DNA of 64,000 nucleotides from an uncultured Pseudomonadales bacterium. Lineage in GTDB: Bacteria; Pseudomonadota; Gammaproteobacteria; Pseudomonadales; Azotimanducaceae. Under the pieces are notes generated by a model. The model was not told the origin of the DNA, did not search any database, and saw nothing but the letters and a program-made list of their open reading frames with translations. This document shows positions 10,167 through 50,123 of the stretch, piece by piece (position 1 is the first letter of the stretch; each line of letters begins with the position of its first letter). The translations under genes and the position numbers were made by a program. The stretch is taken from contig OY282455.1 of NCBI GenBank assembly GCA_958296195.1, forward strand, positions 1,054,001-1,118,000, read 5' to 3'.

Positions 10167-10382
10167 ATGGCCTTGAAAAAATCCCAACTCTACGCCTCTC
10201 TTTGGCAAAGCTGCGACGAGCTGCGCGGCGGCATGGATGCCTACGAGTACCTGATGCGGCACTTCGCCACCGAGTCTGGCAAGAGCAAAGCGAAACTTGC
10301 TCGCCCCATCTTCTCAGATGCCAGCTTTGATCGGGCAATCAATGGCTGCCAACGGCTGCTTAATCCTGACAAAGGGCGGTGA
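10167..10382 (+). pseudogene. hsdM remnant (type I R-M methyltransferase, internally deleted)
   Basis: The first 24 residues, 'MALKKSQLYASLWQSCDELR' then GGMDA, are the N-terminus of HsdM. The next 16, 'AYEYLMRHFATESGKSK', belong roughly 150 residues further on in a normal HsdM, just before the QFYTPAEV segment, which is missing. The frame then runs into unrelated residues and stops. All SAM-binding and NPPF-type motifs are gone, so no methyltransferase activity is possible. The break at MDA/DAYEYL suggests deletion through short homology. This is inference from recall of the family; no alignment was run. Confidence 0.75.
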
Positions 10383-11908
10383 GAGTCGTGGATCCCATTC
10401 GCATTTTTATTAGCAGCGTGCAAAGCGAATTTGCGCAGGAGCGCGAAGCACTGCGGAACTACCTGCATGAAGACCCACTGCTAAAGCGGTTCTTCCATGC
10501 CTTCCTGTTTGAGGATGTGCCGGCATCCGATCGGCGGCCGGATCGGCGTTATCTGGACGAGGTGGAACGAAGTGACCTCTATCTAGGGCTGTTCGGACGC
10601 GACTATGGAACCGAGGATGCCGAAGGTTACTCCCCGACCGATCGGGAATTTGACCGAGCAACTGAAAGAGGTGTGCATCGTCTCATTTTTTTGAAAAACG
10701 TAGATGACAATACTCGCCATCCCAAAATGCAGGTGCTAATTGGCAAAGCGCAATCAGGGCTGGTCCGCAAGAAGTTCAGCACACCAGAGGAGTTAAAGAC
10801 CAGGGTCTATGCGGCATTGGTGGAATATCTGGAGAGCAGGGAGTTGCTTCGTCGAGTGCCTTTTGACGCGGCGCTGTGCAATGGGGCAACTCTGGACGAT
10901 CTCGATTCTGACAGAATGCGTTGGTTTATCCGTCGGGCACGCAGGGCACGGCAGTTCCCCTTGGCTGAAGAGGCGTCGCCCGAGGAGTTGCTGACGCATC
11001 TAAACCTGTTAAACGCAGGGCGGTTGACCCACGCCGCAGTGTTGTTGTTCGGGAAGGCACCGCAGCGATTTTTAATTTCCTCCGAGGTCAAATGCGCCCA
11101 CTTCCACGGAACAGAGGTCGCCAAGCCGATTCCATCCTACCAAGTCTATAAAGGCACAGCGTTCGAGCTGGTCGATCACGCGGTGGATTTTGTGCTGAGC
11201 AAGGTCGCGTTGCACGTCGGTACCCGTGCCGAGAGCGTCCGCGCAGCCGTAACCTACGAGATCCCCAAGGAAGTAGTCACTGAGGCGATTGTCAACGCCG
11301 TGGCGCACCGTGACTACACGAGCAACGGCAGCGTACAAGTGATGCTGTTCGCCGACCGGATGGAGGTCCGAAATCCCGGCCGATTGGCACCCCCGCTAAC
11401 TCTCGAAAAGCTGCGCGAACCGCACAACTCTCTGCCAAGCAACCCCTTGCTGGCTGAGTCACTGTATCTGACCGAGTACATTGAACGAATGGGAACCGGA
11501 ACGCTGGACATGATCCGCCGCTGCATCGGGGCTGGTTTATCAGAACCTGAATTTGACGTTACCGATGGATTCGTCACAAAAATTCGGCGGAAGGCACTCA
11601 CAGGGCGGGTTATGGGTGAGCCGGGAGTGCAGCCAGAGTCGCAGCCAGAGTCGCAGCCAGAGTCGCAGCCAGAACCCCTCGAAGATCGCGTGTTGCGTCT
11701 TCTGATCAGTGGAGCGCTGTCAAAGGCAGAACTATCCAGAAACTTGGGGCAGAAGACGATTTCGGGCCAACTCAACAAGGTCGTCCGGTTGCTCTTGGCT
11801 GACGAAATGATCGAGTTCACACTGCCAGACAAGTTGAAAAGCCGATTGCAAAAATACCGCCTGACGGACAAAGGGAAGGCCGCGGCAGCTATCTCGGAGC
11901 GTAGGTAA
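10379..11908 (+). CDS. DUF4062 + HATPase-type ATP-binding protein embedded in a type I R-M locus
   Basis: 509 residues. An N-terminal DUF4062 domain (about 5-130; 'IRIFISSVQSEFAQERE', 'LDEVERSDLYLGLFG') resembles the TIR/nucleoside-binding fold. The middle and C-terminal part (about 180-420) is Schlafen/AlbA-like with a GHKL ATP-binding motif 'EAIVNAVAHRDY' and 'MEVRNPGRLAPPLT'. A winged-helix-like tail ends the protein. It sits between hsdM and hsdR remnants, as accessory genes in type I loci often do, and is itself intact. GTG 10388, after GGTGAG, is an alternative start that fits 'DPIRIFIS' better. A QPES repeat lies at about residues 418-432. Base composition is lower in GC than the flanking housekeeping genes. 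Confidence 0.8.
   Translation: MRVVDPIRIFISSVQSEFAQEREALRNYLHEDPLLKRFFHAFLFEDVPASDRRPDRRYLDEVERSDLYLGLFGRDYGTEDAEGYSPTDREFDRATERGVHRLIFLKNVDDNTRHPKMQVLIGKAQSGLVRKKFSTPEELKTRVYAALVEYLESRELLRRVPFDAALCNGATLDDLDSDRMRWFIRRARRARQFPLAEEASPEELLTHLNLLNAGRLTHAAVLLFGKAPQRFLISSEVKCAHFHGTEVAKPIPSYQVYKGTAFELVDHAVDFVLSKVALHVGTRAESVRAAVTYEIPKEVVTEAIVNAVAHRDYTSNGSVQVMLFADRMEVRNPGRLAPPLTLEKLREPHNSLPSNPLLAESLYLTEYIERMGTGTLDMIRRCIGAGLSEPEFDVTDGFVTKIRRKALTGRVMGEPGVQPESQPESQPESQPEPLEDRVLRLLISGALSKAELSRNLGQKTISGQLNKVVRLLLADEMIEFTLPDKLKSRLQKYRLTDKGKAAAAISERR
11630..11674 (+). repeat. 12-bp tandem repeat encoding QPES units
   Basis: Three exact copies of CAGCCAGAGTCG followed by a partial fourth, in frame inside the DUF4062/ATPase gene. 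The unit is a multiple of three, so slippage changes the linker length between the ATPase and the winged-helix part without breaking the frame. Confidence 0.9.
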
Positions 11909-11922
11909 GGGAACTCAAGAAC

Positions 11923-12756
11923 ATGAGCGTCGTCGGCCAAAAAGAGATTTTGACACAACAATGCGTGGTTGAATTCTTCCAGGACGCTCTCGGCTACGCC
12001 TATCTTGGCGATTGGCAGGGTCGACAGTACAACTCCAACATGGAAACATCCAAGCTTGCCATGTGGCTGGCTGGGCAGGAACACGACGATACGGTCATCG
12101 ACAAGACGCTGTACGCACTGCACAAGGCCGCGGGAATTAGCGGCAGTACGGCGCTCTACGACGCCAACCGGGAGGTTTATAGCCTGCTCCGCTACGGCAT
12201 GAAAGTGCAGCCCGCCCCGGGGAAACAGCGCGTTACTGTCTGGTTGATCGACTGGGCAAACCCTGCCGCTAACCACTTCGCCATCGCCGAGGAAGTGACC
12301 ATCGCTGGGGAGAACAACAAGCGGCCGGACATCCTGATATACGTCAACGGCATTACCTTCGGTGTGCTGGAATTGAAGCGCTCCACCGTTTCCGTGGCCG
12401 AGGGCATCCGGCAAAACATCGACAGCCAGAAAAAGGAGTTCATCCGCCCCTTTTCTCCACGGTGCAACTCCTGATGGCCGGCAACGAAAGCGAGGGACTG
12501 CGCTACGGCGTAATTGACACGCCGGAGAAGCGCTGGCTGCGTTGGAAGGAGGTGGACGCGCACCCGAAGGCCGGCAACAGCCCACTGCTGCGGGAAATCG
12601 ACCAACTCTGCAACAGTTCGGCGGGGTGGATGAGGCCTATATTGACGCCTTTGTGAAAGGCATCCACGCCCACTTGCCCAGGGGCTTTCACGCCAAAGGG
12701 GGAACTGTTCGTCTTTGTGGATGAATGCCGCCGAACCCATTTCGGTAAGCTGACCA
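11923..12756 (+). pseudogene. hsdR remnant (type I restriction subunit, frameshifted and deleted)
   Basis: Residues 1-175 are a normal HsdR N-terminus with its PD-(D/E)xK nuclease ('RPDILIYVNGITFGVLELKR'). At 12451-12454 the frame breaks: CGCCCCTTTTCTCC reads to a stop at 12474. One more T would continue as RPFFSTVQLLMAGNESEG, which is in fact encoded in the next frame from 12462. Further on, in another frame, GFHAKGG and a degraded DEAD-box 'VDECRRTHFGKL' appear, so most of the helicase has been lost. The motor and restriction functions are gone. Confidence 0.85.
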
Positions 12757-28887: not shown

Positions 28888-30165
28888 ATGAGCAAGCTGA
28901 CCGCCGAGCACTTGATTGAGGACTACAGCGCCGAGGAGCGCGCCATGCTAGAGCGAGTGGAGGAGATTCTGCCGACCTTGGCGGCACGTTCCGGCGACAT
29001 GGACCAGAACAGCTACCTAAGCCCGGAAAACGTCCAAACGCTCGGCGAAGCCGGCCTGCTCGGCCTAGTGGTCCCCAAGGAACACGGCGGTTTGGGCGGG
29101 GACTTGAGGGCTTGGGCCGGGGCCTGCTTCGCCATCGGCACGGTCTGCCCCTCCACCGCCTTGGCCTATTTCTTCCATCTCACCTCCGCTTCCCGAGGCA
29201 ACCTGTCCCTAAAGGCCTTGGACGCCGGCCTGTTCAACGCCGAGGAAGCCCCAAGGGTACGGGCCTTCGCCGAAAAGGTCCTCTACAGCATGGGCCGGGA
29301 CCGGCAATGGCTGGCCAACTTCGCCAGCGAGTCCGTGAAGTCCGAGGCGGCGGCCATCACCATCACCACCAAGGCCAGCAAGGTGGATGGCGGCTGGGAA
29401 TTGAACGGCGTCAAGTCCTTCGGCTGCGCCACCGGCATCGCCCACCGCTACTTGGTCGCCGCCAGCTTGGAAGGCATTGATGACGCCAGCGGCCTCTGCA
29501 CCTTCCTAGTGGAGCGGGGTGCGCAGGGCACCCGCAGCCGCATCAAATGGAATGCTTTGGGGATGCGCGGCTCGGCTACCGAAGGCTTGGTGCTGGAGAA
29601 TGTGTTCGTCGCCGACGATGACGCCTTGGCCATCCCCGGCGCCTTCGTCAAGATGTGCTCGCAAAGCCGCTCCGGTTATGTGGGCAACCAGGTGGCGGCG
29701 TCCAGCATCTACCTCGGCGGCGCCTACGCCGCCTACCAAGCCGCCTTGAAGAACATGCGGCAGCGGAAGTTCGAGGACACCGGCCGGCCCTTGGGCACCG
29801 GCCCCTATCAACAGCAGTTGATCGGCGACATGTACGCGGACCTCAACACCGCTCTGCTTTGGGCCCGCCGCATGGTTCAGATCGAGACAGCCGAGCCGCC
29901 CATCCTGCCCAAGGAGGAAGTGCTGCCCTTCTGGCGCACCTGCAAGGGACAGGTGGCCGAGCACAGCTTCAAAGTGGCCCAGGCTGCCCTAAAGTTGGCC
30001 GGCACCGCCGGCACCCTGTTCGGCACTCCCTTCTCCCGGGCGCTGCGCGACTTGGCGATGGGCTTGGTGCAGGCGTTTCCAGCCGAACGCGGCCGCTTGG
30101 AGACGGCCCAAATGTTGGTGGACGGCACCGAACAGACTTCCTTTGACGCCTTGCGGAAAAAGTAG
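28888..30165 (+). CDS. Acyl-CoA dehydrogenase family protein
   Basis: 425 residues with the ACAD layout: helical N-terminus ('LGEAGLLGLVVPKEHGGLGG'), middle beta domain ('KVDGGWELNGVKSFGCATG', 'WNALGMRGSATEGLVLENV') and C-terminal helices. The usual catalytic Glu cannot be placed, so it may be an ACAD-like flavoprotein acting on a non-standard substrate, as in monooxygenase members (DszC/HpaH branch). It has a purine-rich site (AGAGGAAAAACGGAAA) before ATG 28888. It lies third in the nitrilase run. Confidence 0.82.
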   Translation: MSKLTAEHLIEDYSAEERAMLERVEEILPTLAARSGDMDQNSYLSPENVQTLGEAGLLGLVVPKEHGGLGGDLRAWAGACFAIGTVCPSTALAYFFHLTSASRGNLSLKALDAGLFNAEEAPRVRAFAEKVLYSMGRDRQWLANFASESVKSEAAAITITTKASKVDGGWELNGVKSFGCATGIAHRYLVAASLEGIDDASGLCTFLVERGAQGTRSRIKWNALGMRGSATEGLVLENVFVADDDALAIPGAFVKMCSQSRSGYVGNQVAASSIYLGGAYAAYQAALKNMRQRKFEDTGRPLGTGPYQQQLIGDMYADLNTALLWARRMVQIETAEPPILPKEEVLPFWRTCKGQVAEHSFKVAQAALKLAGTAGTLFGTPFSRALRDLAMGLVQAFPAERGRLETAQMLVDGTEQTSFDALRKK

Positions 30166-33348: not shown

Positions 33349-33486
33349 ACTCCATCCGGCTGATTCTTATCAGGGGATCATGCAACACTTTTGCCTCAAC
33401 CTAGCGCTTGACAATGGCGGTCTGGACGACGCACACTAACGCAAGTGGTCGCCAACCGCCCCGCTATAATAACGAAGGACCCAAGC

Positions 33487-35079
33487 ATGTCAGATCATAC
33501 TTCAATCACCCTGAACTTGACTATCTTTGATTTCGAACTGTGCGCGGAACTCGCGCAGCGCTCCGAAGGAGAAGATCGCGACAATTTCGCCGTTACAGCA
33601 ATGAAGATTGGCTCTCTCGCGCTTCGGCAGGCGCAAGGTCGGATTGACGCTGACCGTGTTCGGGCGGAGGGGGACCGCCTTATCGAAAACATGAGCGAAG
33701 CTCTTAATAGGCGCTACGAACAAGTAACCAAGCAAATTAGCGATTGCCTAAAGGACTACTTTGATCCAGAGAGTGGGCGTTTTAATGAACGAGTGCAACG
33801 TCTCATTAAAAGGGATGGGGAGTTGGAGCAGGTTTTGCGGAAGCAGATAGTAGGAGATAGCTCTCCTCTAACACAGACGCTATCGGATTATGTGGGTAAA
33901 GACAGCTTGTTGATGAGGACGCTTGATCCCGAATCTGCTGAAGGCTTGATTCGCTCGCTGATGAAAACAACCGAGGATACGCTATCTGAACGGAACAAAC
34001 TTATAATTCGTGAGTTTTCACTGGATAATACTGATGGTGCCCTTGCCCGATTGGTTTCCGAACTGGAGAAAAAGAACGGTGACTTGATGGGCGAATTCTC
34101 GCTGGACAAGGAAGATTCCGCACTTTCGCGTTTGGTAACCAAGGTTGAAAGCGCACAAAAAGACATTAGTCGCGAGTTCTCGCTTGACGAAGAAGGGTCA
34201 GCGCTAGCACGAATGCGCAAGGAGCTTAAGAGGGAATTCGAAAAATATAATGAGGAAAATCGTGACTTTCGATCAAAGGTGCTAGAGCGACTTGCTGCTA
34301 TGGATGCGACTAGGAAAGAAGTAGATCGTTCACCACGTCACGGTATCCAGTTCGAGAAAGCGGTATTTGAGTTTGTAGCTGACCGCTGCCAAAAATCTGG
34401 CGACATTGCGGAACCAACCGGGAATAAGACTGGTTTCATCAGGAATAACAAGAAAGGTGATATTGTTGTAACAATTGGCCCAGAGCAAGCTGTTTCTGGT
34501 GCAAAAATCGTCGTTGAAGCGAAAGAAAAGGACTCTTACCCTTTAGCTAAAGCCTTGCTCGAACTGGAGGAAGCAAGGAAAAATCGAGAGGCTGATATCG
34601 GTCTGTTTGTCTTCTCGAAGTGCAAGGCCCCCGAGGAAATTGATCCGCTTTTGCGCTACGGTGACGATGTCATAGTTATCTGGGATGTGGCTGATCGTAG
34701 CAGTGATGTTATTCTCAGTGCAGGTCTCGCCGTAGCAAAGGCCATTTGCGTACGGAAACGAGCACAAAGTGCTGAACATTCAGCAGATTTCGAGGTGATT
34801 ATGAAAGCTATTCGTGGAATAGAAAAGCAAGCTGGTGGCTTGGAAGATATAGCCAAATCGGCCAAAACTATCAAGAGCAGCAGCGAGAAAATTCTTAATC
34901 GTGCTGAGATTGTCCGCAACGAACTTCGGAAGCAGGTGGAAACCTTGGAAGGGAAAATCGATGGCTTGCGGGAAGTGGTTAAGGACACTGGACAAATAGC
35001 TTTCGCCGAACGCCAATCAAAACCGCCCCGTAGGTCTAAGTCGTCGAATCGAACAGACTGGACCGACGCGGCGAGCTAA
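33487..35079 (+). CDS. Coiled-coil PD-(D/E)xK nuclease-like protein (candidate defence)
   Basis: 530 residues. Residues 1-175 are mostly helical. Three repeats beginning EFSLD occur at 176, 203 and 230, spaced 27 residues. A coiled-coil (about 245-280) leads to a restriction-endonuclease-like core: E290 (QFEKAV), D325 (NKKGDIVV) and E344-x-K346 (VVEAKEK). A second coiled-coil ends the protein. Base composition is far richer in A/T than the flanking genes, a sign of transfer. Start ATG 33487 has GAAGGA upstream. It ends 23 bp from the stop of a convergent Schlafen-like gene. Family not named; nuclease activity is inferred from motifs. Confidence 0.7.
   Translation: MSDHTSITLNLTIFDFELCAELAQRSEGEDRDNFAVTAMKIGSLALRQAQGRIDADRVRAEGDRLIENMSEALNRRYEQVTKQISDCLKDYFDPESGRFNERVQRLIKRDGELEQVLRKQIVGDSSPLTQTLSDYVGKDSLLMRTLDPESAEGLIRSLMKTTEDTLSERNKLIIREFSLDNTDGALARLVSELEKKNGDLMGEFSLDKEDSALSRLVTKVESAQKDISREFSLDEEGSALARMRKELKREFEKYNEENRDFRSKVLERLAAMDATRKEVDRSPRHGIQFEKAVFEFVADRCQKSGDIAEPTGNKTGFIRNNKKGDIVVTIGPEQAVSGAKIVVEAKEKDSYPLAKALLELEEARKNREADIGLFVFSKCKAPEEIDPLLRYGDDVIVIWDVADRSSDVILSAGLAVAKAICVRKRAQSAEHSADFEVIMKAIRGIEKQAGGLEDIAKSAKTIKSSSEKILNRAEIVRNELRKQVETLEGKIDGLREVVKDTGQIAFAERQSKPPRRSKSSNRTDWTDAAS
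34012..34254 (+). repeat. Three tandem 27-codon repeats (EFSLD units)
   Basis: The unit reads roughly EFSLDxExSALxRL then 13 helical residues, with the third ending in a longer helix. The copies differ at the DNA level, so this is an old protein repeat, not recent duplication. It sits between the N-terminal helical part and the nuclease core. Confidence 0.75.
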
Positions 35080-35102
35080 AGCCAAGCAAGCCCCTTACCG
35101 AA

Positions 35103-36335
35103 TCATATGCCCCTCGTCTTCTTCCACAAGCGGACCATGAAGCGACTATCATCCTCAATCAGGTCTGGCTTAGTGCTGTTATGTTGGCGCATGGAGCCGA
35201 TGATGCGATTTCGTACGCCCATGCCGAGGTGTTCGACATAGCCATAGTCGCGCAATATTTCCTTCAGCAGCTCGTTTCTGGCGGCCCGTAGCCCTTCGGA
35301 CATCTTTTCGACGGTGACCCCATTCGGCAGGCGTCCGGGCGAAATAACTTCTAGACGATCTTGATACAGCGAGATTTCAACATCGGTTCCGGCTAACGTG
35401 TAGTCGCGGTGTGCAACGGCGTTCACTATGGATTCCCGAACGGCATCTACGGGGAACGCCTTTTTCCGACGCCTACGCCCCCTTTCGAGCCATGCGCTGG
35501 ACCCCATGTTTCGGGCCACGAAATCCACTGCCCGGTCGATCACGCCTTTTTCCTCAACGTGCTTTCTTGGCGACAACATGGAGACTAGGGGACCGCGAAT
35601 CAATTCTTCGTCAACCGTGTTGTATTCCTTAGCCGTTCCGGGGAAGGCAGCGGCCGTGATGCCGGCCTGCGGAAGCCGGCGATTAGGATAGGTGCCGAAC
35701 AGGAGCAAACCGGCAACGGTCGTCATGGTGTTGCCGGCCGTCTCCGTTAGTATGTCGATATTGGTTAGAATTCTCCTCCACGCCTCGACATCGTGGCTTG
35801 CTGGCGCAGTGCGCTTCTGAATTCGGAAGTAATTCCTGATCCGTTCCAAGTCCAGGCTTTCCAAATCGGTTTCATGAACGGGCTTAAGATCGTGGCGTAC
35901 GACGCCGGCGGACTGATAGAGACGCCCTTCCTCTTCATAGGTTGCCTTCCTGGAGGTAGTGCCAACGCGAATGTAAGTTTGCCACGCTGTGCCTCGCTTC
36001 GCTTTGTAGGGCTTGCTTGGACTGTCTGCCGGCAAGCCGATGACTCCAACGACCTTACCATCTTCCAGTGAAACACACGACCAAGAAGGAATGCAGGCCG
36101 GCTGAATGTTATGGCTGACGATATTCATTACCCGTTCTTCGGCCTGCTGGCGGCTTTGCGTCAAGCTGCAAATATCGCCATCGTCCTCAACACCAAGCAG
36201 GATATGCCCTCCTTCAAAATTGAGCAGCGCCGAGATTTCCTTGGCGATGGAATCGGGATGCTCGCTGTCCCGCTTGAACTCCACCTTGGAGTTCTCTCCG
36301 TTGCGAATCAGTTCCAGTAGTTCAGCCTTGGTCAT
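35103..36335 (-). CDS. Schlafen-like AlbA_2 + GHKL ATP-binding protein
   Basis: 410 residues. The N-terminal AlbA_2 domain has 'SKVEFKRD', 'EISALLNFEGGHILLGVEDD' and 'TYIRVGTTSRKA'. The C-terminal GHKL-type ATP-binding region carries 'ESIVNAVAHRDYTLAGTDV' and 'LEVISPGRLPNGVT', much like the HATPase part of the 10379 gene. Such proteins are common in defence islands and as putative transcriptional regulators. It starts 7 bp after the PHP-SMC ATPase gene, so it is its operon partner. Confidence 0.85.
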   Translation of the reverse strand: MTKAELLELIRNGENSKVEFKRDSEHPDSIAKEISALLNFEGGHILLGVEDDGDICSLTQSRQQAEERVMNIVSHNIQPACIPSWSCVSLEDGKVVGVIGLPADSPSKPYKAKRGTAWQTYIRVGTTSRKATYEEEGRLYQSAGVVRHDLKPVHETDLESLDLERIRNYFRIQKRTAPASHDVEAWRRILTNIDILTETAGNTMTTVAGLLLFGTYPNRRLPQAGITAAAFPGTAKEYNTVDEELIRGPLVSMLSPRKHVEEKGVIDRAVDFVARNMGSSAWLERGRRRRKKAFPVDAVRESIVNAVAHRDYTLAGTDVEISLYQDRLEVISPGRLPNGVTVEKMSEGLRAARNELLKEILRDYGYVEHLGMGVRNRIIGSMRQHNSTKPDLIEDDSRFMVRLWKKTRGI

Positions 36336-36342
36336 GGTTTGG

Positions 36343-39018
36343 CTAAAACCCGTACTTGCGGCGGCGGCGCTCGAAGGCTTCCTTGCCGCCCTCCAAGACC
36401 TCTTCGATCAGTTCCCGCACTGGCAGCGCGTCGATGGCGCCAACATGGTCAGACGCAATGCGGGCGTTTCCGCCATCCATCCCGCTGGAGGCGGCAAGTC
36501 CGATGATCATTTCGGCATCGCCCAGCACCGGGATGTTGGCGTTGTGGGTGGAGAAAACGAACTGCCGCCGGCGCTTTTCCTCGCGCATTTTGGGAACGAT
36601 GCTTTCGGTTATGAAGCGATTGTCTAGATCGTCCTCCGGCTGATCGACGATCAGCGGCGCATCGGATTCGAGCAGCAGAAGCAGCAGCACTGCGGTGGCC
36701 TTCTGGCCCGTCGATAGTTCTTCCAAGGCTTGCCATTGCGGTGGCTCGCCGGCCGGCGCTGTGTTAAGCCGAATGGCGGTGGTCGGAGCCAGGTGCAGTT
36801 CTTCGACTTGCATGAACACCTCCGGTTTGGCTTCCGCAATGTTGCGGGCTTGGCCAGGGGTGAGATCATACTTGGCTCGCAATTCGTCTGAACCTTGACG
36901 GCAAGCGTCCGCAAATTCGGCAAGGGAGAGTTCTCTGGCGGCCCCCAGCTTTTGGATTGTGCTGCTTAGCTGGCCGCCAATCTCGGTTCTCAGAAGATTG
37001 AACAGCGTTGTCCGGTCGCCGGCTGCGGTCACCTTTGCCTCCACTTGCTGCCGAAGCCCCTTGCTAACCTTTTTTGCAGCCTTGTCCAACACCCGGAACT
37101 CCTCCGCCTTCACATCCTCCCACTCGACTAGCGATGCGCGGCGTTGCGACAAGTGTTCCTGCTCCGTGCGGCGCAGCAAGGCATGGCGCTGCCGAAGGGG
37201 ACGCAGCCCTTCAATCTGCTTCCGCAGGCGAATGAACTCCTCGCCGTCAACAGCGGATTTCTTGAGTTCGCGCAGAATCCTTTGGTAGTCGGCTTGGACT
37301 TCGTTTTTGCGCTGCTCCCAAAGAGTACGGACCTTCGAGATTTCCTGGTCCGCTTGCTGCAAGGCAGCTTCGAGTTGTCGCGCCGCCTGTTCAAGGCTGG
37401 TGCTTAGACGCTCCAGGATTGCGTTCGCGCCGCCTAGGATTTCCTTGCCGGGCAGGTCCTCCAATTCCTTCTCCGACAGAAACGTTCGGTCAATGGGAAG
37501 TCCCTGACGCAGCAAACTCAGGCATTCGTGGAATGCCTCCAGCCGGTCCGGGATGGAGTCGAGTACTCGCTCCTCCTTAACGATTAGGCTTTGCTCGCGC
37601 AAACGGCCCTCAAGGCCGGCATCCCTGAAGCGCTCCAGCTTTTCCTCAAGCCCCGGCAAAGCGGCTAATCTTTCCTCGACTTCCTGGAGTTCCGCTTGTA
37701 CCTCAACAATGGAGCGCCGCACTTTCTTCAAGCTACGGCGCAAGTCGGCCTTGCGTCTATCGAACGAGGTGTTTGGGTCAACAAAGCGGTCCAGAAGACG
37801 GGTGAGCTTCTCCTGGCTCCTAGTGAGTTCCGATATCTCGTGCTGTCCGTACATTTCAATGCGCGGAAGGATATCCTTCGGCTGCAAGTTGGATATCGTC
37901 CCGTCCGCTGCCCGAACGATGGGCGGATTGGGAACGGTTCTCTCAATGCGGTACTTCTGTTTTGTTGGGTGGTGGGAGCGAACATCCAGTGCTATTTTTG
38001 TGCCGCCCCGCAGAACTTGGTCAACGATTCCACTATACGCATCGCGGGCCGCTTCCCCAGCGGGAGTCAGGCCTAGTGCGTACCGCAGGCTCTCAAGAAC
38101 CGTGGATTTGCCGGCGCCCCGTCCGCCGATAAGCACATTCAGATTTTGATTGAAGCGAATGGTCGCCCCGTCCAAAAAGCCGCCTTCCCAAGACAGGGAA
38201 AGCAACTCGGCATGGTCTTCCGGTGGCGGGTCGCTGGCCAAGCGAATTCTGGACCCCGGATCGAGAAACGCTTGACGCAGGCCCTCGACGCCGATTTCGG
38301 ACATTTTGAGCCAGCAAGTGGCGGAGGGATCCTCCAAGTCTTCCGGCTGCACGATATCCTTGGCGTTGACTACGGCAATTCCCAAGTTGTCCCCCGCCGG
38401 TGCGCGTCGGTAGTCTGGGTTCTTGTTGCAGACAATTTGGCGCACTTCACGAGGCAACGCATCGACGGATCCCGGAATTTGGATCGCAAGGAGATCTTCG
38501 GTTTGCCATGCATTGATTCGGGGACGTCCAGAAAGAACTTTGAACAGCCCCTTTTCGTTGGTCGCGTGGGCGGCGATGGCAACGCCTCCCTGTTCTCGAA
38601 TTTTCGTAAGGACTTCATGAAGTGGGCTATCTGACAGGCCCGACCGGATTCCGAATTCGCCAAGAAACCGTTGCATTTGATCTTCTTCAGTATCCGGTGG
38701 ATAGATGCAAAGCACATGGATGCCTTCCGAGGAGGAAAGCTCAAATCCGGGGAATATCACAATTCCTCGGTCCGCGGCCGCATCACGGAACAGGGCCACT
38801 CCGCTCACGCTGTCGTGGTCAGTGATAGCGAGCACGGAAATGCCGAGCTCATTGGCTTTTTCGACAATGGCTTTTGCGTAGGATTGGGCGTCGCCACTGG
38901 CCTCTTGGCCGCGGTATGTGCCCGCATAGTGATGCGGGTTCACCTGCAGGGCGCACCGATGGAACACGGCACCCACCGGCTGCGTCGCCGCTTGAGCGGT
39001 GCGCTCTCTATATGTCAT
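36343..39018 (-). CDS. PHP-domain + SMC-like AAA ATPase (TrlF-like)
   Basis: 891 residues. A PHP phosphoesterase domain (about 30-260) has ITDHD (65-69), PGFEL (E93) and AHATN (H151), although the first PHP His motif is weak ('QVNPHHY'). An ABC/SMC-type ATPase follows, with Walker A GGRGAGKS (298-305), a long coiled-coil (about 410-640), signature LSTGQ and Walker B 'PLIVDQPEDDLDNRFI'. This is the layout of the TrlF-like family. A nuclease/ATPase role in defence or repair is inference. The first gene of a two-gene operon with the Schlafen-like protein. Confidence 0.85.
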   Translation of the reverse strand: MTYRERTAQAATQPVGAVFHRCALQVNPHHYAGTYRGQEASGDAQSYAKAIVEKANELGISVLAITDHDSVSGVALFRDAAADRGIVIFPGFELSSSEGIHVLCIYPPDTEEDQMQRFLGEFGIRSGLSDSPLHEVLTKIREQGGVAIAAHATNEKGLFKVLSGRPRINAWQTEDLLAIQIPGSVDALPREVRQIVCNKNPDYRRAPAGDNLGIAVVNAKDIVQPEDLEDPSATCWLKMSEIGVEGLRQAFLDPGSRIRLASDPPPEDHAELLSLSWEGGFLDGATIRFNQNLNVLIGGRGAGKSTVLESLRYALGLTPAGEAARDAYSGIVDQVLRGGTKIALDVRSHHPTKQKYRIERTVPNPPIVRAADGTISNLQPKDILPRIEMYGQHEISELTRSQEKLTRLLDRFVDPNTSFDRRKADLRRSLKKVRRSIVEVQAELQEVEERLAALPGLEEKLERFRDAGLEGRLREQSLIVKEERVLDSIPDRLEAFHECLSLLRQGLPIDRTFLSEKELEDLPGKEILGGANAILERLSTSLEQAARQLEAALQQADQEISKVRTLWEQRKNEVQADYQRILRELKKSAVDGEEFIRLRKQIEGLRPLRQRHALLRRTEQEHLSQRRASLVEWEDVKAEEFRVLDKAAKKVSKGLRQQVEAKVTAAGDRTTLFNLLRTEIGGQLSSTIQKLGAARELSLAEFADACRQGSDELRAKYDLTPGQARNIAEAKPEVFMQVEELHLAPTTAIRLNTAPAGEPPQWQALEELSTGQKATAVLLLLLLESDAPLIVDQPEDDLDNRFITESIVPKMREEKRRRQFVFSTHNANIPVLGDAEMIIGLAASSGMDGGNARIASDHVGAIDALPVRELIEEVLEGGKEAFERRRRKYGF

Positions 39019-39068
39019 GGTCTGTCCGCCCTAAACTTCCATAGCCATAGCTACACTATCGCACTGTT

Positions 39069-39296
39069 TCAGCGCATTCCACAAGCACCTAGTAGAGGGC
39101 CTTGCACGGGCGGCGGCCTGATGAACGAGCGCATCCGCTCGTGCGCATTGGCGCAGACGCTGCCGAGCGCCATGGCCATCATCACCGCCAGCGCCAAGCC
39201 CACCCGCGCCGCCATTCGATCCTTGCCGCGGATGCTGTGGCTCTCGAAGTGGAACCCATCCTCGATGCGGGCGTTCAGAATAGCGCAAGTCTCTCG
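39069..39296 (-). mobile_element. Transposase C-terminal remnant
   Basis: In one minus frame, 'CAILNARIEDGFHFESHSI' then RGKDRMAARVGLALAVMMAMAL is the end of a DDE transposase (the 'HSIRG.. KM..R' tail seen in IS5/ISNCY-like elements). The rest of the element and its inverted ends are missing. It sits just upstream of the PHP-SMC operon start. Confidence 0.6.
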
Positions 39297-44606: not shown

Positions 44607-46118
44607 CTAGGCAATCAACGCCCCCACGAACCGCGCAAAAGGCCTGATGTCGTCGGCTACGCTGGCTGCTTCCAACGCCGCCATGTACTCGTTCCTGCGT
44701 CCCGTCGGCACTACGCACCAAGGATAACCCCCGGAGGCGAGCATGGCGTTCATCAAGAATCTTCCTAGGCGGCCGTTGCCGTCCATGTAGGGGTGGATGA
44801 AGACGAACAGGAAGTGTCCGAGCACGGCGCGAACAGCGGGCTTCTCTTCCTCTGACAGCAAATCGAACAGGGTCGGCATGAGGTCCCGCACCGCGGAAGG
44901 GCGGGGCGGAACGTGGCGGGCGTTGCGGATGAAGACCTGTCCGGTTCTGTAGCCGGCCAGTTCGGCGGTACCCAGGATGCCGGCGCGAACGCTTAGTGCG
45001 ATCAGGGCGCGATGCCAGTCCCCGTGGTCGTCGCGCACCGCCACGCCAGGATTCTTGCCAGCCAGAATGTCCGCGACCGTCTCCTTCACCGCCTCAAAGG
45101 ACTCGTAGTAGCCCCGTGCCGCCAAGGCATCCCTCTGCGCCGCGTCGGGCGGGTGCCGCTCCGGGTCCCATGCGCCGCCCCGCACACGCTCGATCAGTTG
45201 CGGCGTCACCTGATAGCCTTCGATGGACAGCGAATGGTAAGCATCCTCAACGTAGGCTGCGTCCATTGCCTTCAGGTAAGCACCGCTTTCAATCGGCAAC
45301 CCCGGCGGAGACGGGAATTGACTGGCAACCACCTCGCGCATTCCATGCCATCTCAAACGCATCCGCGCCACCCACGGGGCTTCGCGGCTGGCGACCACAA
45401 ACGGCGACGGTTCCGCAAACGGGTCCTTTTCGCGCACGTCGTAACCCGCGCCGCGCATGGCTGCGACAATTTCGTCTGCCACGCCACGCCGACCGATGTG
45501 GCGCAAGCCTCCGGCAAGTCGCCCGGCGACGGTGCTGCGGCCACCGCCGAGCAGCAAAACGAGAACCTCGGAGGCGTCGGGGATGCCGGCAAGCGCCGCA
45601 CGGGCTGCGTTGGCCTGCTGCCGGAAGAAGCTGGGCGTTGCGGCAACAAGGGCGGCTGGCAACGCGAACGTCCGCAGGCCGGCCAGTTCCTCCGCATGGC
45701 CCTCAGCGGGAAGTGCAGCGCGGGTCTCCACAATTGAAGCATCATGGGCAAGCGCCGTAATTTTGTTGCGCGCCTTCGGCGAACGCACGAGAAGCTGCCG
45801 CGGCACAGCCCAATCGCCAACTTGGAGGAGCAGGGATTGTTCTGGGGAAAGCGACCAATCGCTGCCGAACCGAGCTTCCAGATAGGTGGCGCAGAAACTC
45901 CAAAACGAGGCCAGCCAAGCCGTGCCGTCACCTACGACGGCACCGGGGCTGGCCGGGACGCACCACCCCTTGATGACTTCCTGCAGAAATCCTGCTTGGA
46001 GCAGCCGCTCCCTGTGGGTGCGGCCCAAGTCCGCGGAGCGGATGGCTGACCGCCCGCCTTTTTGCAGAGCTTCCAGAACCTCCAAGGACGCGGCCAACTT
46101 CTCTTGTGAACCTGCCAT
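44607..46118 (-). CDS. Fic family protein with N-terminal winged-helix
   Basis: 503 residues. The Fic core motif HPYMDGNGRLGR has all catalytic residues for AMPylation-type transfer. An inhibitory helix motif of the S/TxxxE(G/N) type, SLSIEG, is present before the core, so it is a self-inhibited class II Fic. The N-terminus resembles the AbiEi-type winged helix. ATG 46118 was chosen over a TTG nine bases upstream. Its promoter region (46119-46263) holds an inverted repeat and an 11-bp direct repeat (gaattttagct at 46150-46160 and 46216-46226), suggesting self-regulation. Confidence 0.85.
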   Translation of the reverse strand: MAGSQEKLAASLEVLEALQKGGRSAIRSADLGRTHRERLLQAGFLQEVIKGWCVPASPGAVVGDGTAWLASFWSFCATYLEARFGSDWSLSPEQSLLLQVGDWAVPRQLLVRSPKARNKITALAHDASIVETRAALPAEGHAEELAGLRTFALPAALVAATPSFFRQQANAARAALAGIPDASEVLVLLLGGGRSTVAGRLAGGLRHIGRRGVADEIVAAMRGAGYDVREKDPFAEPSPFVVASREAPWVARMRLRWHGMREVVASQFPSPPGLPIESGAYLKAMDAAYVEDAYHSLSIEGYQVTPQLIERVRGGAWDPERHPPDAAQRDALAARGYYESFEAVKETVADILAGKNPGVAVRDDHGDWHRALIALSVRAGILGTAELAGYRTGQVFIRNARHVPPRPSAVRDLMPTLFDLLSEEEKPAVRAVLGHFLFVFIHPYMDGNGRLGRFLMNAMLASGGYPWCVVPTGRRNEYMAALEAASVADDIRPFARFVGALIA

Positions 46119-46162
46119 GCTGCCCAAGCCTGCCGGTGAAGTGATGTGCGAATTTTAGCTTA

Positions 46163-46177
46163 TTCCGCCGTGCGGAA
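46163..46177. promoter_or_regulatory. Perfect inverted repeat upstream of fic (operator candidate)
   Basis: TTCCGC-CGT-GCGGAA, 6-base arms with a 3-nt centre, 45-60 bp upstream of the fic start. It is flanked by the GAATTTTAGCT direct repeats. The N-terminal winged-helix of Fic is a likely binder, by inference. Confidence 0.5.
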
Positions 46178-46263
46178 ATTAGCTTGTTCTGGGGCGGGCC
46201 GTTCGCTCCGTATATGAATTTTAGCTCTTGGGGTGGTTTAAGGCTTTTGAACAAGTTGTGCGT

Positions 46264-48657
46264 TCACTCTGCCAGCAGCCCGCTTGCTTCCCGCAGCTTG
46301 TGTAGATCCCGGCGGATGTCTTGAGCGACCTCATTCACTTCTTGAGCCACATGGGTCTCAAGACCGATATCCTGACCGAGCGCCGTTGTCAGCGGCAGCA
46401 GGGGGTCCGCTGCCGGCGACGCCAAAATCCACTCCCGCACTGGAGCGGCGCCAAGTTTGATGCTGACCAACAGCAACATGTCGATGACAGTTGACGGCGG
46501 AATCTTGAGTTCTGGCAGCATTGCAAGAATTTTTTGGATATCCTCTTGGCATATGGTTGCGTCATCGTTAACAAGGTTTGCTAGCGCTCGCGCCACACGG
46601 GCAGCTATCTGGTCTTCTGTTGAGATATCGGAGGAGTACGCTTCGATTACTTGACTCGCGGTTCTGATGGATGAATCGACGCGGTGGAGTGACAACTCGA
46701 GACTTGACTTTCCTACAAGAGCCGACCCCACTAGTTTTCGGATCGGCTGCTCCTTGTATGTTCCGAACTGGCCAAATACCTCGTCGCACTTGTGCAGAGC
46801 TTCTATTAGTCTCCCCTTCTGTCCAAGCTCTTTCCCTGCGAATAGGAGGGACTTTGCTACAAATTCAGTATTAAGCTCGTCATCTGTGTTGACGAAGCGG
46901 TGCATCATCTCGTCGTAGTTGGCCAAGGCTTCATCAATGCGGTTTAGTAGCAACAGCGAGACTGCTTTGTTCCCAAAGGCAAATACGATTAGCTGTTGCG
47001 CTAAGGCCGCGTCGTAGCCTTCAAGGTGTTGGATGCCCGCTTTGAATTCCGTTAGCGCTTCCTCGAATCGGTCCAAGCTCCTGAAGATTACGCCTTTCCC
47101 TATTTGGGCCATGGCAACCCCTGCGATGTTGGACTGACTGGTGCTGTCCCCGAAGCGATGGACGATCGTATCATAAGCCCCTAGCGCCTCCTCGAACCGG
47201 CCTTGACGACAGAGGTCTTCCGGCACCGACAGCATTTGAAACACGTCATCTTTGTCGGTATCGAAATCATTTGCCTGCTTGGGGTGTACTTTCGGCGATT
47301 CTCCACTCACGGGTGGCCGCCCTTTATCGAGTACTTTCGCCAAGTCCTCTGGCATTTTCGCCAACAACTCGTCGCCGTACTCGGTCAACTCTGGTAGTGC
47401 AAAGATCTGCCGCAATGCGGCCTTGTACAGTAGTTGCATCTCTGCGTTCGCTCCCGGCAGATCTTCGATCATTTGGACGCCAACCCCCTTTAGCTCCTTG
47501 GGCGAGTAGTAGGACGCCATGAAGCGGATAAGGGCTTCAAGCAAGGGATCGGGTCCCCGTCGCTGCCGAAGCAGGTAGTAGATGTTGTACAGCCGTTCGG
47601 CTAGGTAGTGCAGCTTGCGGCGGGCGCTGCCGCCGAAGACCACCACGGCGCCTCGCTCGACAAGGCGCCTTAATTGGGCGCTGCACTTGCTGGTGTCCAA
47701 ACGCGCTTGGTTGGCGATTTCGCGTGTGCTCGCCGGTTTCCACAGTTCCGCCAACGCCAGATAGACCCGCCGTTCCTGGGCCGGCAGCGACTCCAAGTGG
47801 CTCTTGAAGTACTCGGTGTGATCGTCGATCAGGTCGAGCAGTTGCGCCATGAGTTCCTGAAAGGAAAGTCCCCCGCCGAAGCGGGCGAGGATGCTCAGCA
47901 ATCGTGGGCTGCCGCCGGTGAGTATCTCTAGCGACCGGATCGTCGATGGTGCGCGGTGCCGACCGGAAACCGTTTCCCAAAGAACCGCACACTCCTTGGT
48001 GTCGAGAGGACGCAGCTGGAGCGTCCTGAACAAATCATAGAGCGCCCGGTCGGGATGGTCGATTTGGTCAAAACGGCTGGTCGCGCTGGCCAGCAAGATG
48101 AAGCGAGGATCGGTCTGGAGGGTCTCGCGCAGTCGCCATGCCTCGGTGTCCGCATTCGGCATGTCGCCGAACATCATGTTCAGGTTCTCGACGATCAGCA
48201 CCAACCGTTTGGCGGCGCGGTCGGAGAAGTCCTGCACGGCGCCTAGGCAGCGGTCAGCGAGCAATTGGTCATCCCGGATGGTGCGCAGATCTTCGAAAAC
48301 ACTTCTTAGCTCGGGTTCACCCTCCCGCGACGGTGCTTGGTCAGCCAGACGGCGCAGACATTCCAGCCAGAACTCACCCAAGCTGCCCACGCCGTAGCTT
48401 TCCTCCGCGAATACGACTGGGAAAAGGCGAGGCGACAACGCCTCGTCGCGGCGGATTTCCGCGGCTACACGAAGCAGCAAACTGGTCTTGCCGCTGCCCC
48501 GCGGGCCGATCACGAGCTGGTGGACGTTCGATGCGCCTGTGGATTCGCGCAAAGCTTCGACGATGGATTCGAACTCGCTCGTTCGCACACAGAAGGAGGC
48601 GACCAGTTCGTCGTCGGTCAAGAAACCCGGATTGTATTTCTTCGTGGCCACGGTCAT
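46264..48657 (-). CDS. STAND-like AAA ATPase with winged-helix and TPR-like repeats
   Basis: 797 residues. An N-terminal P-loop ATPase (Walker A GPRGSGKTS, about 51-59; 'RLVLIVENLNMMF' as Walker B) is followed by a winged-helix ('STREIANQARLDTSKCSAQL'). A long helical C-terminus follows, with TPR-like units ('RFEEALGAYDTIVHRFG', 'RFEEALTEFKAGIQHLEG', 'RIDEALANYDEMMHRF'). That is the STAND/NLR plan: sensor repeats, switch ATPase, effector. No separate effector domain is seen. Its ATG overlaps the stop of the upstream ATPase (ATGA). The distal part is less GC-rich than the proximal part. Confidence 0.8.
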   Translation of the reverse strand: MTVATKKYNPGFLTDDELVASFCVRTSEFESIVEALRESTGASNVHQLVIGPRGSGKTSLLLRVAAEIRRDEALSPRLFPVVFAEESYGVGSLGEFWLECLRRLADQAPSREGEPELRSVFEDLRTIRDDQLLADRCLGAVQDFSDRAAKRLVLIVENLNMMFGDMPNADTEAWRLRETLQTDPRFILLASATSRFDQIDHPDRALYDLFRTLQLRPLDTKECAVLWETVSGRHRAPSTIRSLEILTGGSPRLLSILARFGGGLSFQELMAQLLDLIDDHTEYFKSHLESLPAQERRVYLALAELWKPASTREIANQARLDTSKCSAQLRRLVERGAVVVFGGSARRKLHYLAERLYNIYYLLRQRRGPDPLLEALIRFMASYYSPKELKGVGVQMIEDLPGANAEMQLLYKAALRQIFALPELTEYGDELLAKMPEDLAKVLDKGRPPVSGESPKVHPKQANDFDTDKDDVFQMLSVPEDLCRQGRFEEALGAYDTIVHRFGDSTSQSNIAGVAMAQIGKGVIFRSLDRFEEALTEFKAGIQHLEGYDAALAQQLIVFAFGNKAVSLLLLNRIDEALANYDEMMHRFVNTDDELNTEFVAKSLLFAGKELGQKGRLIEALHKCDEVFGQFGTYKEQPIRKLVGSALVGKSSLELSLHRVDSSIRTASQVIEAYSSDISTEDQIAARVARALANLVNDDATICQEDIQKILAMLPELKIPPSTVIDMLLLVSIKLGAAPVREWILASPAADPLLPLTTALGQDIGLETHVAQEVNEVAQDIRRDLHKLREASGLLAE

Positions 48658-49958
48658 CGCTTTGGCCCCGCCGCAACGTCGCGATCGGCTATGGGAACGA
48701 AGTGTTGCCCGTGCCGCGCCCGCCACCAATCCTCCAGCAAACCTGACACAAAGCGATAGCCGCCGCCTTCTTCCGGGGCGAGATAGCCATCATGTTCGAG
48801 GGTGTAGAGCACATCTTTAACCGGCACCGACTGGGCTTGGCCTTCGGCAAGTGCATGGAACAGCGCAATAGCGTCGTTGCCTAGTTTGCCGTGGTTTACG
48901 GAGGCTTCCGTCAGCATGTCTAGGGCCGTGGGATAGCCGTTCCCGCCGAGCACCAAGCGCAGCCGGTTTTCGTAGTGGTCCAGCACCATCTGTCCGCGAG
49001 GACCAAGGAGTTCCCGCTGGTAAACGATGTCCACATCCTCAAGTGATGCCTTATTTCGCCCTGCCCGACGCAAATGTTCATGCAAGTGGTCGAAAAACTG
49101 CTGCACATGGTGGGGTATTTGACACCGCAAGCGGTGGCACATGGCAACGCGCACTTCTTGAGGCAGGTCCAACCCATAGTTGGCGGCAAGCGCCTCCAGG
49201 CATTCCTTCGCCGTCTGCTCGTTCCAGGGTTTCAGGTCAAATGAGGAGAAGATGTTGGCGTGGGCGCTCAATCCAGCCTGGCGCAGGATCGGTTCAAGCC
49301 CTACGCTGCCTGAAAGGATCATGCAGATGCGATTACGATGCGTTTGCCCATTGTGGCGCAGCCAGCTAAGGAATGCGTCCGCTGCCTGCCTCCCCTCGGG
49401 CGTGATGTCCCCGTCCTGCCCCTTGAGTAGGCGGTTGACTAAGATTGGCAGTTCGTCCAGCGCAAGCACGACCGGCCGATCGTTCTCCGCCAGTGCCGCC
49501 AGCAGGTCGTCGCCTTTTTGCCGCCAGTCGCCGGCGCTCATGCCGCCCCTTAGCTTGGCTTTCAGGTCGCCAAGCGAAAGCGTTTCGACTTGATCGCCAG
49601 CCGTTCGCAGCGCGTTGGCAAAGGCGGATTGGATGCGATGCCATGCGCCTTGTGCCGACCTCGACCTAGCACCGATCTCGGCGATTGCGTCCGCCGGGTC
49701 CATGGCGGCCTCCAAGTCCACAAAGATAGGCTCGAAGCCGCCTCCATCCCCAAGCCGGCGCAGCAGCTCGCGGACCAAGCTGGTCTTACCCATGCGCCGT
49801 TGCGCGGTAAGCAGCGTATGGGCGCCGTCCCGTACGCGCTCTTCAAGCGCTTGCAGCTCAGACGCCCTGTTGAAGAACCGATCTCCCTCAACCCAATTGC
49901 CGCCAGCCTTCTGGAGTTTCAACACCGCAGTTTTCCCAACAAATTTGTTGCCAACCAT
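48654..49958 (-). CDS. AAA ATPase, first gene of a coupled ATPase pair
   Basis: 434 residues from ATG 49958; the frame stays open to 50102, so the start is uncertain. Walker A is AQRRMGKTS (about 52-60) after 'FFNRASELQALEERV', Walker B 'VVLALDELPILVN', and sensor-like 'MILSGSVGLEPIL'. A winged-helix-like C-terminus ('LYTLEHDGYLAPEEGGGYRF') follows. This is the archaeal-ATPase/ORC-like plan. Two palindromes overlap the start codon. The pair may sense and signal together, by inference. Confidence 0.8.
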   Translation of the reverse strand: MVGNKFVGKTAVLKLQKAGGNWVEGDRFFNRASELQALEERVRDGAHTLLTAQRRMGKTSLVRELLRRLGDGGGFEPIFVDLEAAMDPADAIAEIGARSRSAQGAWHRIQSAFANALRTAGDQVETLSLGDLKAKLRGGMSAGDWRQKGDDLLAALAENDRPVVLALDELPILVNRLLKGQDGDITPEGRQAADAFLSWLRHNGQTHRNRICMILSGSVGLEPILRQAGLSAHANIFSSFDLKPWNEQTAKECLEALAANYGLDLPQEVRVAMCHRLRCQIPHHVQQFFDHLHEHLRRAGRNKASLEDVDIVYQRELLGPRGQMVLDHYENRLRLVLGGNGYPTALDMLTEASVNHGKLGNDAIALFHALAEGQAQSVPVKDVLYTLEHDGYLAPEEGGGYRFVSGLLEDWWRARHGQHFVPIADRDVAAGPKR

Positions 49959-49969
49959 TTTGTTGGCAA
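49937..49969. promoter_or_regulatory. Two overlapping palindromes at the ATPase start
   Basis: CAACAAATTTGTTG (49937-49950) is a perfect 14-bp palindrome. Overlapping it, TTGCCAAC (49948-49955) and GTTGGCAA (49962-49969) form perfect 8-base arms around the start ATG at 49956-49958. Good operator geometry for an autoregulator; the encoded winged-helix domains are candidates. Confidence 0.55.
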
Positions 49970-50123
49970 AATTAGGGACTGTCAACAGGAACCGCCTCAT
50001 GCGGCCGTTGCCGCTCACAGCAAAGGAAGCATCCGCCAAAAACGCGGTGGGTGAGCGCAAAATTGCTGCCGCTACGCAATTGTCAAGCCAAATTAGACAC
50101 ACAGCGGCACATTGGGGGTTTGT

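Follow-up and report, generated by a model that had tools for sequence, protein, structure and literature searches.

A trlF-trlG gene pair, some relatives of which lie in bacterial defence operons, a putative PrrC-like growth-arrest module

Two adjacent minus-strand genes of the window (the whole stretch of 64,000 nucleotides analysed, part of a 4.31-Mb single-contig genome) belong to the trlF and trlG families. We consider that they probably form a growth-arrest module of the abortive-infection type, a PrrC-like set of two proteins in which TrlF controls the Schlafen RNase TrlG, and that the 530-aa gene facing them appears to be an unrelated insert. The conserved pairing, the fold, the conserved catalytic positions and the embedding in defence operons were observed for trlF-trlG; the RNase activity, its control by TrlF, the trigger and the protection against phages are what we infer. 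A previous sequence-only reading had proposed an unnamed three-gene arrangement at this place. The genes are indeed laid out as it described, with the 530-aa gene and trlG convergent and 23 bp between their facing stops (35080-35102), and with trlG and trlF in a two-gene minus-strand operon. The pair does have a name, as the two genes correspond to the trlF and trlG families of PMC7554251. The features of the locus are the following:

33487-35079, plus strand: 530-aa coiled-coil ORF, with its ATG at 33487 (ORF listing)
35103-36335, minus strand: trlG, 410 aa, Schlafen/AlbA_2 domain and HATPase_c_4, proposed RNase effector (ORF listing, Pfam)
36336-36342, minus strand: trlF/trlG gap of 7 bp, consistent with one transcript (ORF coordinates)
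36343-39018, minus strand: trlF, 891 aa, PHP-like domain and SbcC/Rad50-type ABC ATPase, proposed sensor/controller (ORF listing, NCBIfam)

The trlF and trlG genes are a travelling two-gene pair. A TrlF match at E 1e-30 is present in 8 of 274 genomes of the class, including that of the window, and a TrlG relative is adjacent in all 8. We also analysed 80 named TrlF loci, which are the best 80 of 569 from GTDB genomes and are biased towards TrlFs resembling that of the window; L051 and G273 (L004, L108), which appear to be one record, were counted once among them. TrlG directly follows TrlF, with a match beginning at most 600 bp downstream, in 58 of the 76 loci of these best 80 that have at least 400 bp of room. 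The gap between the two genes, determined for 59 relatives, has a median of 10 bp and does not exceed 41 bp in 58 of them, the last one being 172 bp. The pairwise distances of TrlF and TrlG agree as well (Mantel r 0.89 for 49 taxa, with 0/2000 permutations as high). An adjoining TrlG is missing in 18 of the 76 loci with room, again among the best 80 of 569. Four of these TrlG-less loci (L065, L066, L070 and L076) hold type I R-M relatives, and a scan of ten candidate neighbours revealed no recurrent alternative partner in the TrlG-less loci. Two phages also gave TrlF relatives, both without a TrlG match alongside. That of a Peduoviridae phage (L142, 3992-6610) bears the annotation of a chromosome partition protein and retains a PHP motif of the HxH type; that of a Tectiliviricetes Vibrio phage (L143, 1343-3959) is a match extending over two annotated genes. 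These two phage proteins and the 18 of 76 loci indicate that TrlF can to some extent exist on its own.

The 891-aa protein passes the NCBIfam model NF045780 (TrlF_fam_ATP) with an E-value of 1.3e-155 and 520.6 bits, against a cut-off of 350, and scores 199 bits with the Ppl model, below its cut-off of 1000. PHP, AAA_23 and AAA_21 are over their Pfam cut-offs, in line with the PHP domain and ATPase of the sequence-only reading; the SMC label fares less well, SMC_N remaining below cut-off. No HEPN match was obtained in TrlF with Pfam. In an alignment of 84 TrlFs, made of 67 non-solo and 17 solo sequences (one record, L051 and G273, is present twice, and the loci without room for TrlG sit in the non-solo group), the Walker A (G298, G303, K304), signature (S769, G771, Q772) and Walker B (D792-E795) residues are identical in all 84 rows. 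The PHP-like domain harbours several positions that we take to be metal ligands, namely H68 (62/67 non-solo TrlFs), E93 (66/67), H101 (65/67), H151 (67/67) and D221 (67/67), and all five are kept in the 17 solo TrlFs. The first HxH motif, presumably also a set of ligands, is mostly replaced, with Y31 in 57/67 non-solo and 15/17 solo TrlFs. Because this motif is mostly lost, the metal site of the TrlF PHP domain looks reduced, and the alignment makes sensing or binding seem as likely as catalysis.

The 410-aa protein is over the Pfam cut-offs for SLFN_AlbA_2 (PF04326) and HATPase_c_4 (PF13749), and its previous description as an AlbA_2/GHKL ATPase holds. An AlphaFold model generated from 52 sequences is confident (pLDDT 91.9). 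Foldseek analyses with this model retrieved 3lmm (E 8e-21), which has the same two-domain layout by alignment length, as well as 2kyy, the SAMD9 tRNase domain (9o0d, E 7.7e-5) and SLFN5/11/12/13/14 (E from 4.3e-5 upwards); the low TM-scores (0.18-0.26 by query length) are what a match confined to one domain would give. The TrlG alignment consists of 51 relatives and the window protein, leaving out L030 and L052, which have a stop within the match span, and five partial or split matches. E14, F20 and K21 are conserved in 52/52 sequences, E19 in 50/52 (Asp in the other two), D51 in 45/52 and D52 in 46/52. The active site of SLFN13 is composed of E205, E210 and D248, and both glutamate-to-alanine mutants are inactive (PMC5862951). 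E14 and E19 have the same five-residue spacing as E205 and E210, and the Schlafen catalytic E-E-D triad is thus found in TrlG, with D51 or D52 as the candidate counterpart of D248. The model predicts a Schlafen/SAMD9-type tRNase fold for TrlG, and an RNase activity is likely because this confident Schlafen-like model is accompanied by catalytic glutamates kept at the SLFN13 spacing. In two loci (L103, 15222-16376, and L106, 13839-14927), a second, diverged AlbA_2/HATPase protein with 26% identity is encoded beside trlFG.

BREX, type I R-M or DUF1156/DUF499 operons enclose some of the trlF-trlG relatives. We assigned identities to ten representative neighbours, namely PglX, PglZ, BrxL, HsdM, another N6-methylase, HsdR, a DUF1156 methylase, DUF499/HmaC and two helicases. 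Setting the helicases aside, relatives of the other eight proteins occur in 19 of the 80 TrlF loci (best 80 of 569) and in 17 of the 49 loci of at least 15 kb, these being raw counts without a background rate, with many short contigs; when the helicases are included, 24 of the same best 80 loci hold relatives of the ten checked proteins. A looser count of 27/80, obtained by single linkage, was replaced by the count of 19, as one or more of its entries were artefacts (L018, where the ORF overlaps trlG). The gene order PglX, TrlF, TrlG, PglZ, BrxL is found in L051, L061, L064 and L067, the PglX gene of the latter being cut by the contig end. In G133, whose pair is the nearest to that of the window among the class genomes sampled (63% and 70% identity by tblastn), the pair is followed by genes similar to DUF1156-cluster methylases (30-31%) and to a DUF499 ATPase (32%). 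On the Citrobacter plasmid pCFR-0b27 (L144, 2501-13468), hsdM, hsdS, trlF, trlG and hsdR form one same-strand run. Finally, 64 same-strand genes that abut the pair or TrlF in 49 loci were scanned with PADLOC. Among the 25 entries listed out of 212, at least five of the 64 neighbours each match PglX, DUF1156_MTase and HmaB, at least four PglZ, at least three each HmaC and DUF499, and at least two each REase_I and HmaA, these families overlapping one another.

The trlF-trlG pair of the window's own genome seems to stand alone, without a recognised BREX, R-M or DUF1156 operon alongside. The sequence-only reading had placed R-M genes in the island, and a Pfam scan of 20 other window proteins bears this out for a single HSDR_N protein, the sole R-M type match among them, about 23 kb from trlF-trlG; that scan brought up no modification gene in the vicinity of the two genes. 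Elsewhere in the genome, DUF1156 is matched at 8 places and DUF499 at 2, all far from trlF-trlG, and since they are present at a distance, a remote partner is possible. At two places (G000:C1, around 52-65 kb and 494-503 kb), DUF499 and DUF1156 genes lie approximately 9-13 kb apart, and these are possibly two BREX-related systems.

In the mechanism that we propose, TrlG would be the effector, a Schlafen-fold endoribonuclease that probably cuts tRNA or rRNA and is coupled to a GHKL-like domain. TrlF would represent the sensing and control part, with its SbcC/Rad50-type ABC ATPase and its PHP-like domain with a partly dismantled metal site. Within BREX, type I R-M and DUF1156/DUF499 operons, the pair might step in once the main system has been blocked, in the way that PrrC backs up EcoprrI. 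This guard model is motivated by analogy with PrrC, whose gene lies within a type IC R-M locus and which is released upon blocking of EcoprrI by the T4 protein Stp (PMC12707154, PMC3710099). Like PrrC and RloC, the pair combines an SbcC/Rad50-type ABC ATPase with an RNase, and some of its relatives are located in hsd loci; a PrrC-type embedding in a type I R-M locus was found in relatives such as L144 and not for the window pair, among the 20 other proteins scanned. PrrC and RloC are single proteins with a HEPN nuclease, whereas trlF-trlG encodes two proteins, with an extra PHP-like domain and with a Schlafen domain carried by a separate protein in place of a HEPN-ABC ATPase fusion.

A Schlafen RNase with a minimal histidine kinase and a wHTH domain has been described as a backup effector of BREX/BR in at least 1017 taxa (PMC12839542). 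Its domain make-up matches that of TrlG, and several relatives of our pair are found in BREX or DUF1156/DUF499 operons, unlike the window pair, beside which no such operon was recognised. No PHP-ABC partner is named for this effector in the main text of PMC12839542, which contains no match to PHP, AlbA or TrlF. Both the trl operon (2020, PMC7554251) and the Schlafen backup effectors of BREX (PMC12839542) are thus already in print. We found no paper tying TrlF-TrlG to defence operons in the open-licence literature, and either of two works that PMC12839542 cites, Krishnan 2020 and the Taboada 2025 preprint, may already do so. The literature accessible to us, in part as excerpts, yielded no RNase assay or phage test of trlF-trlG. 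Menshen, another candidate, was not indicated by any PADLOC match among those listed, which holds only if the library includes Menshen models.

The 'temperature restriction locus' of Photorhabdus laumondii, trlR-trlF-trlG, was reported in 2020 (PMC7554251). According to that report, the trlG gene of clones tolerant to 36 °C is altered by substitutions, stops or IS insertions; growth is likewise regained when the trlRFG operon is deleted, and supplying the complete operon in trans brings the restriction back. By our own count of its printed table, there are 16 distinct trlG lesions, 14 of which are in genome-sequenced clones, only trlG having been sequenced in clones JA and JB, and the paper reports no trlF lesion. 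Some isolates lacked any trlG mutation; once frozen, these failed to grow again at 36 °C, and two of them had fur or spoT changes (PMC7554251). If lesions fell in proportion to length, the chance that none of 14 hits trlF, whose product is about twice as long, would be approximately 1e-7, an estimate that uses the lengths of the window proteins as stand-ins, takes the events as independent and excludes JA and JB. It appears from this that TrlF is dispensable for arrest in P. laumondii, or that its loss is not tolerated; that no trlF mutants were seen speaks against a need for TrlF to activate TrlG in that strain. The Photorhabdus locus resembles that of the window in having the same two families, trlF before trlG, with AlbA_2 (14-128) and HATPase_c_4 domains in its TrlG (PMC7554251); it differs from it by its genomic site and by trlR, a small regulator gene upstream, which was not recognised in the window ORF listing. 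We attempted to map the published TrlG substitutions on the P. akhurstii protein (L060), but only 4 of 13 residues (S16, V35, A36 and R126) fit the numbering, and the resulting conservation p-value was discarded.

These genetic data also favour another explanation, namely that TrlF-TrlG is a toxin-restrainer pair for general stress such as heat or mobile-element control, in which TrlF checks TrlG and whose role is not mainly antiphage. Growth arrest at 36 °C is the sole phenotype of the pair that we found in print (PMC7554251), trlF mutants are absent in spite of the length of the gene, and the authors speculate that the trl locus controls IS elements (PMC7554251). We nevertheless regard this explanation as unlikely in view of the recurrent positions of the pair within BREX, R-M and DUF1156/DUF499 operons, and of the TrlFs without TrlG, whose proportion in the best 80 loci is odd for a pure antitoxin. 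We tentatively extend the growth-arrest module to a wider proposal, in which TrlF-TrlG might be a widespread two-protein counterpart of PrrC, its PHP-ABC sensor guarding methylation-based defence and freeing a Schlafen tRNase when this defence is blocked. Given its recurrence in BREX, type I R-M and DUF1156/DUF499 systems, the temperature arrest of Photorhabdus would then be an accidental firing of this antiphage guard. If true, the proposal would join a heat-triggered growth-arrest operon of obscure purpose with the Schlafen RNases of BREX-type operons, which are kept apart in the papers accessible to us, and it would provide a plausible controller for those bacterial proteins that are related to the Schlafen and SAMD9 tRNases of humans.

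TrlF itself might instead be the effector, a Ppl-like exonuclease/ATPase acting on DNA ends, with TrlG as a nucleic-acid-binding regulator. Ppl is a single-gene antiphage protein of E. coli in which PHP and NTPase domains are reported to make up a 3'-5' ssDNA exonuclease gated by NTP depletion and 3' ends (PMC12904381). TrlF resembles it in sequence, as reflected by the 199-bit score, and in combining PHP and ABC-type ATPase domains in one chain; TrlF also occurs without TrlG. It departs from Ppl by that same score, far from the 1000-bit cut-off, by its Schlafen partner and by the loss of the HxH motif in most TrlFs examined, solo ones included. With this motif mostly lost, the catalytic glutamates of TrlG kept, and published lesions in trlG and none in trlF (PMC7554251), we find a TrlF effector rather improbable.

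That the nuclease, the PHP-SMC ATPase and the Schlafen ATPase constitute one three-gene defence system, as suggested by the tight convergent layout, is highly improbable, as the 530-aa gene is found in none of the 80 TrlF loci at E 1e-3 (best 80 of 569, 49 of which hold at least 15 kb), has no relative in any of the genome, plasmid, phage and viral contig sets that were searched and differs in GC3 from trlF and trlG. The three families did not co-occur either in 7 longer stretches from class genomes, including 16.5 kb around the closest class-sample relative. In this sample, the nuclease and the ATPase pair are carried independently, which the sequence-only reading had itself named as the outcome that would make them chance neighbours. 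The defence-type role that it proposed finds support for trlF-trlG, to the exclusion of the 530-aa gene, and a false lead, the nuclease, is removed from the window.

The 530-aa gene appears to be an unrelated neighbour or insert and not a part of the trlF-trlG module. Its listed ORF begins at an in-frame GTG at 33445, and 530 residues are counted from the ATG at 33487; the length of the ORF and an AAGGA preceding this ATG make it look genuine as a gene. At E 0.1, neither PADLOC nor NCBIfam gives a match to the protein, and its only two Pfam matches are below cut-off and within the coiled coil. The candidate PD-(D/E)xK label corresponds to a GDI...VEAK motif read by eye, and a single-sequence AlphaFold model is unusable (pLDDT 43). 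A relationship with DUF2130 was considered and rejected, as a profile comparison with four DUF2130 sequences gave no match. The gene was found in its own genome only, among 274 genomes of the class (E 1e-8) and 398 of the phylum (E 1e-5), two overlapping sets, with no match in 72,556 plasmids (E 1e-5), in 50,697 phages (E 0.01) or, by a pattern scan, in IMG/VR viral contigs; the GTDB contig collection was scanned with TrlF as the only query. In a domain-only search with the 530-aa protein, 32 of 274 genomes, its own included, gave matches at E up to 1, the best other one at E 0.0186. Six of these matches were opened, of which four look by eye like HtrA, CheA, ribosomal protein L2 and DNA polymerase I, and two were not recognised. 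The gene is relatively AT-rich, in line with the previous reading, with a GC content of 0.481 and a GC3 of 0.473, compared with 0.550 and 0.635 for trlG, 0.583 and 0.656 for trlF, and 0.646 and 0.854 for the ORF at 28888; GC3 values of nearby genes are for example 0.854 and 0.838. Its GC3, unlike those of trlG, trlF and nearby genes, suggests a separate arrival.

On the other side of the pair, a dispersed repeat (39101-39275) lies immediately upstream of trlF, with partial copies at 7 other places of the genome, 71-92% identical. The ORFs listed just upstream of trlF all overlap this repeat, such as that at 39031-39288 (minus strand, 85 aa). An IS21 IstB gene is also present upstream of trlF, with an IstA that by-eye reading shows as broken, which confirms the IS remnants reported in the island, as does a Fic gene for the Fic protein reported there. 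At 10379-12474, an AT-richer patch encodes a DUF4062 and HATPase_c_4 protein, with an HSDR_N protein directly after it. The Fic protein is encoded in the 44607-50102 segment, together with an AAA_16 ATPase that also matches TPR weakly and another protein whose AAA_16 match remains below cut-off.
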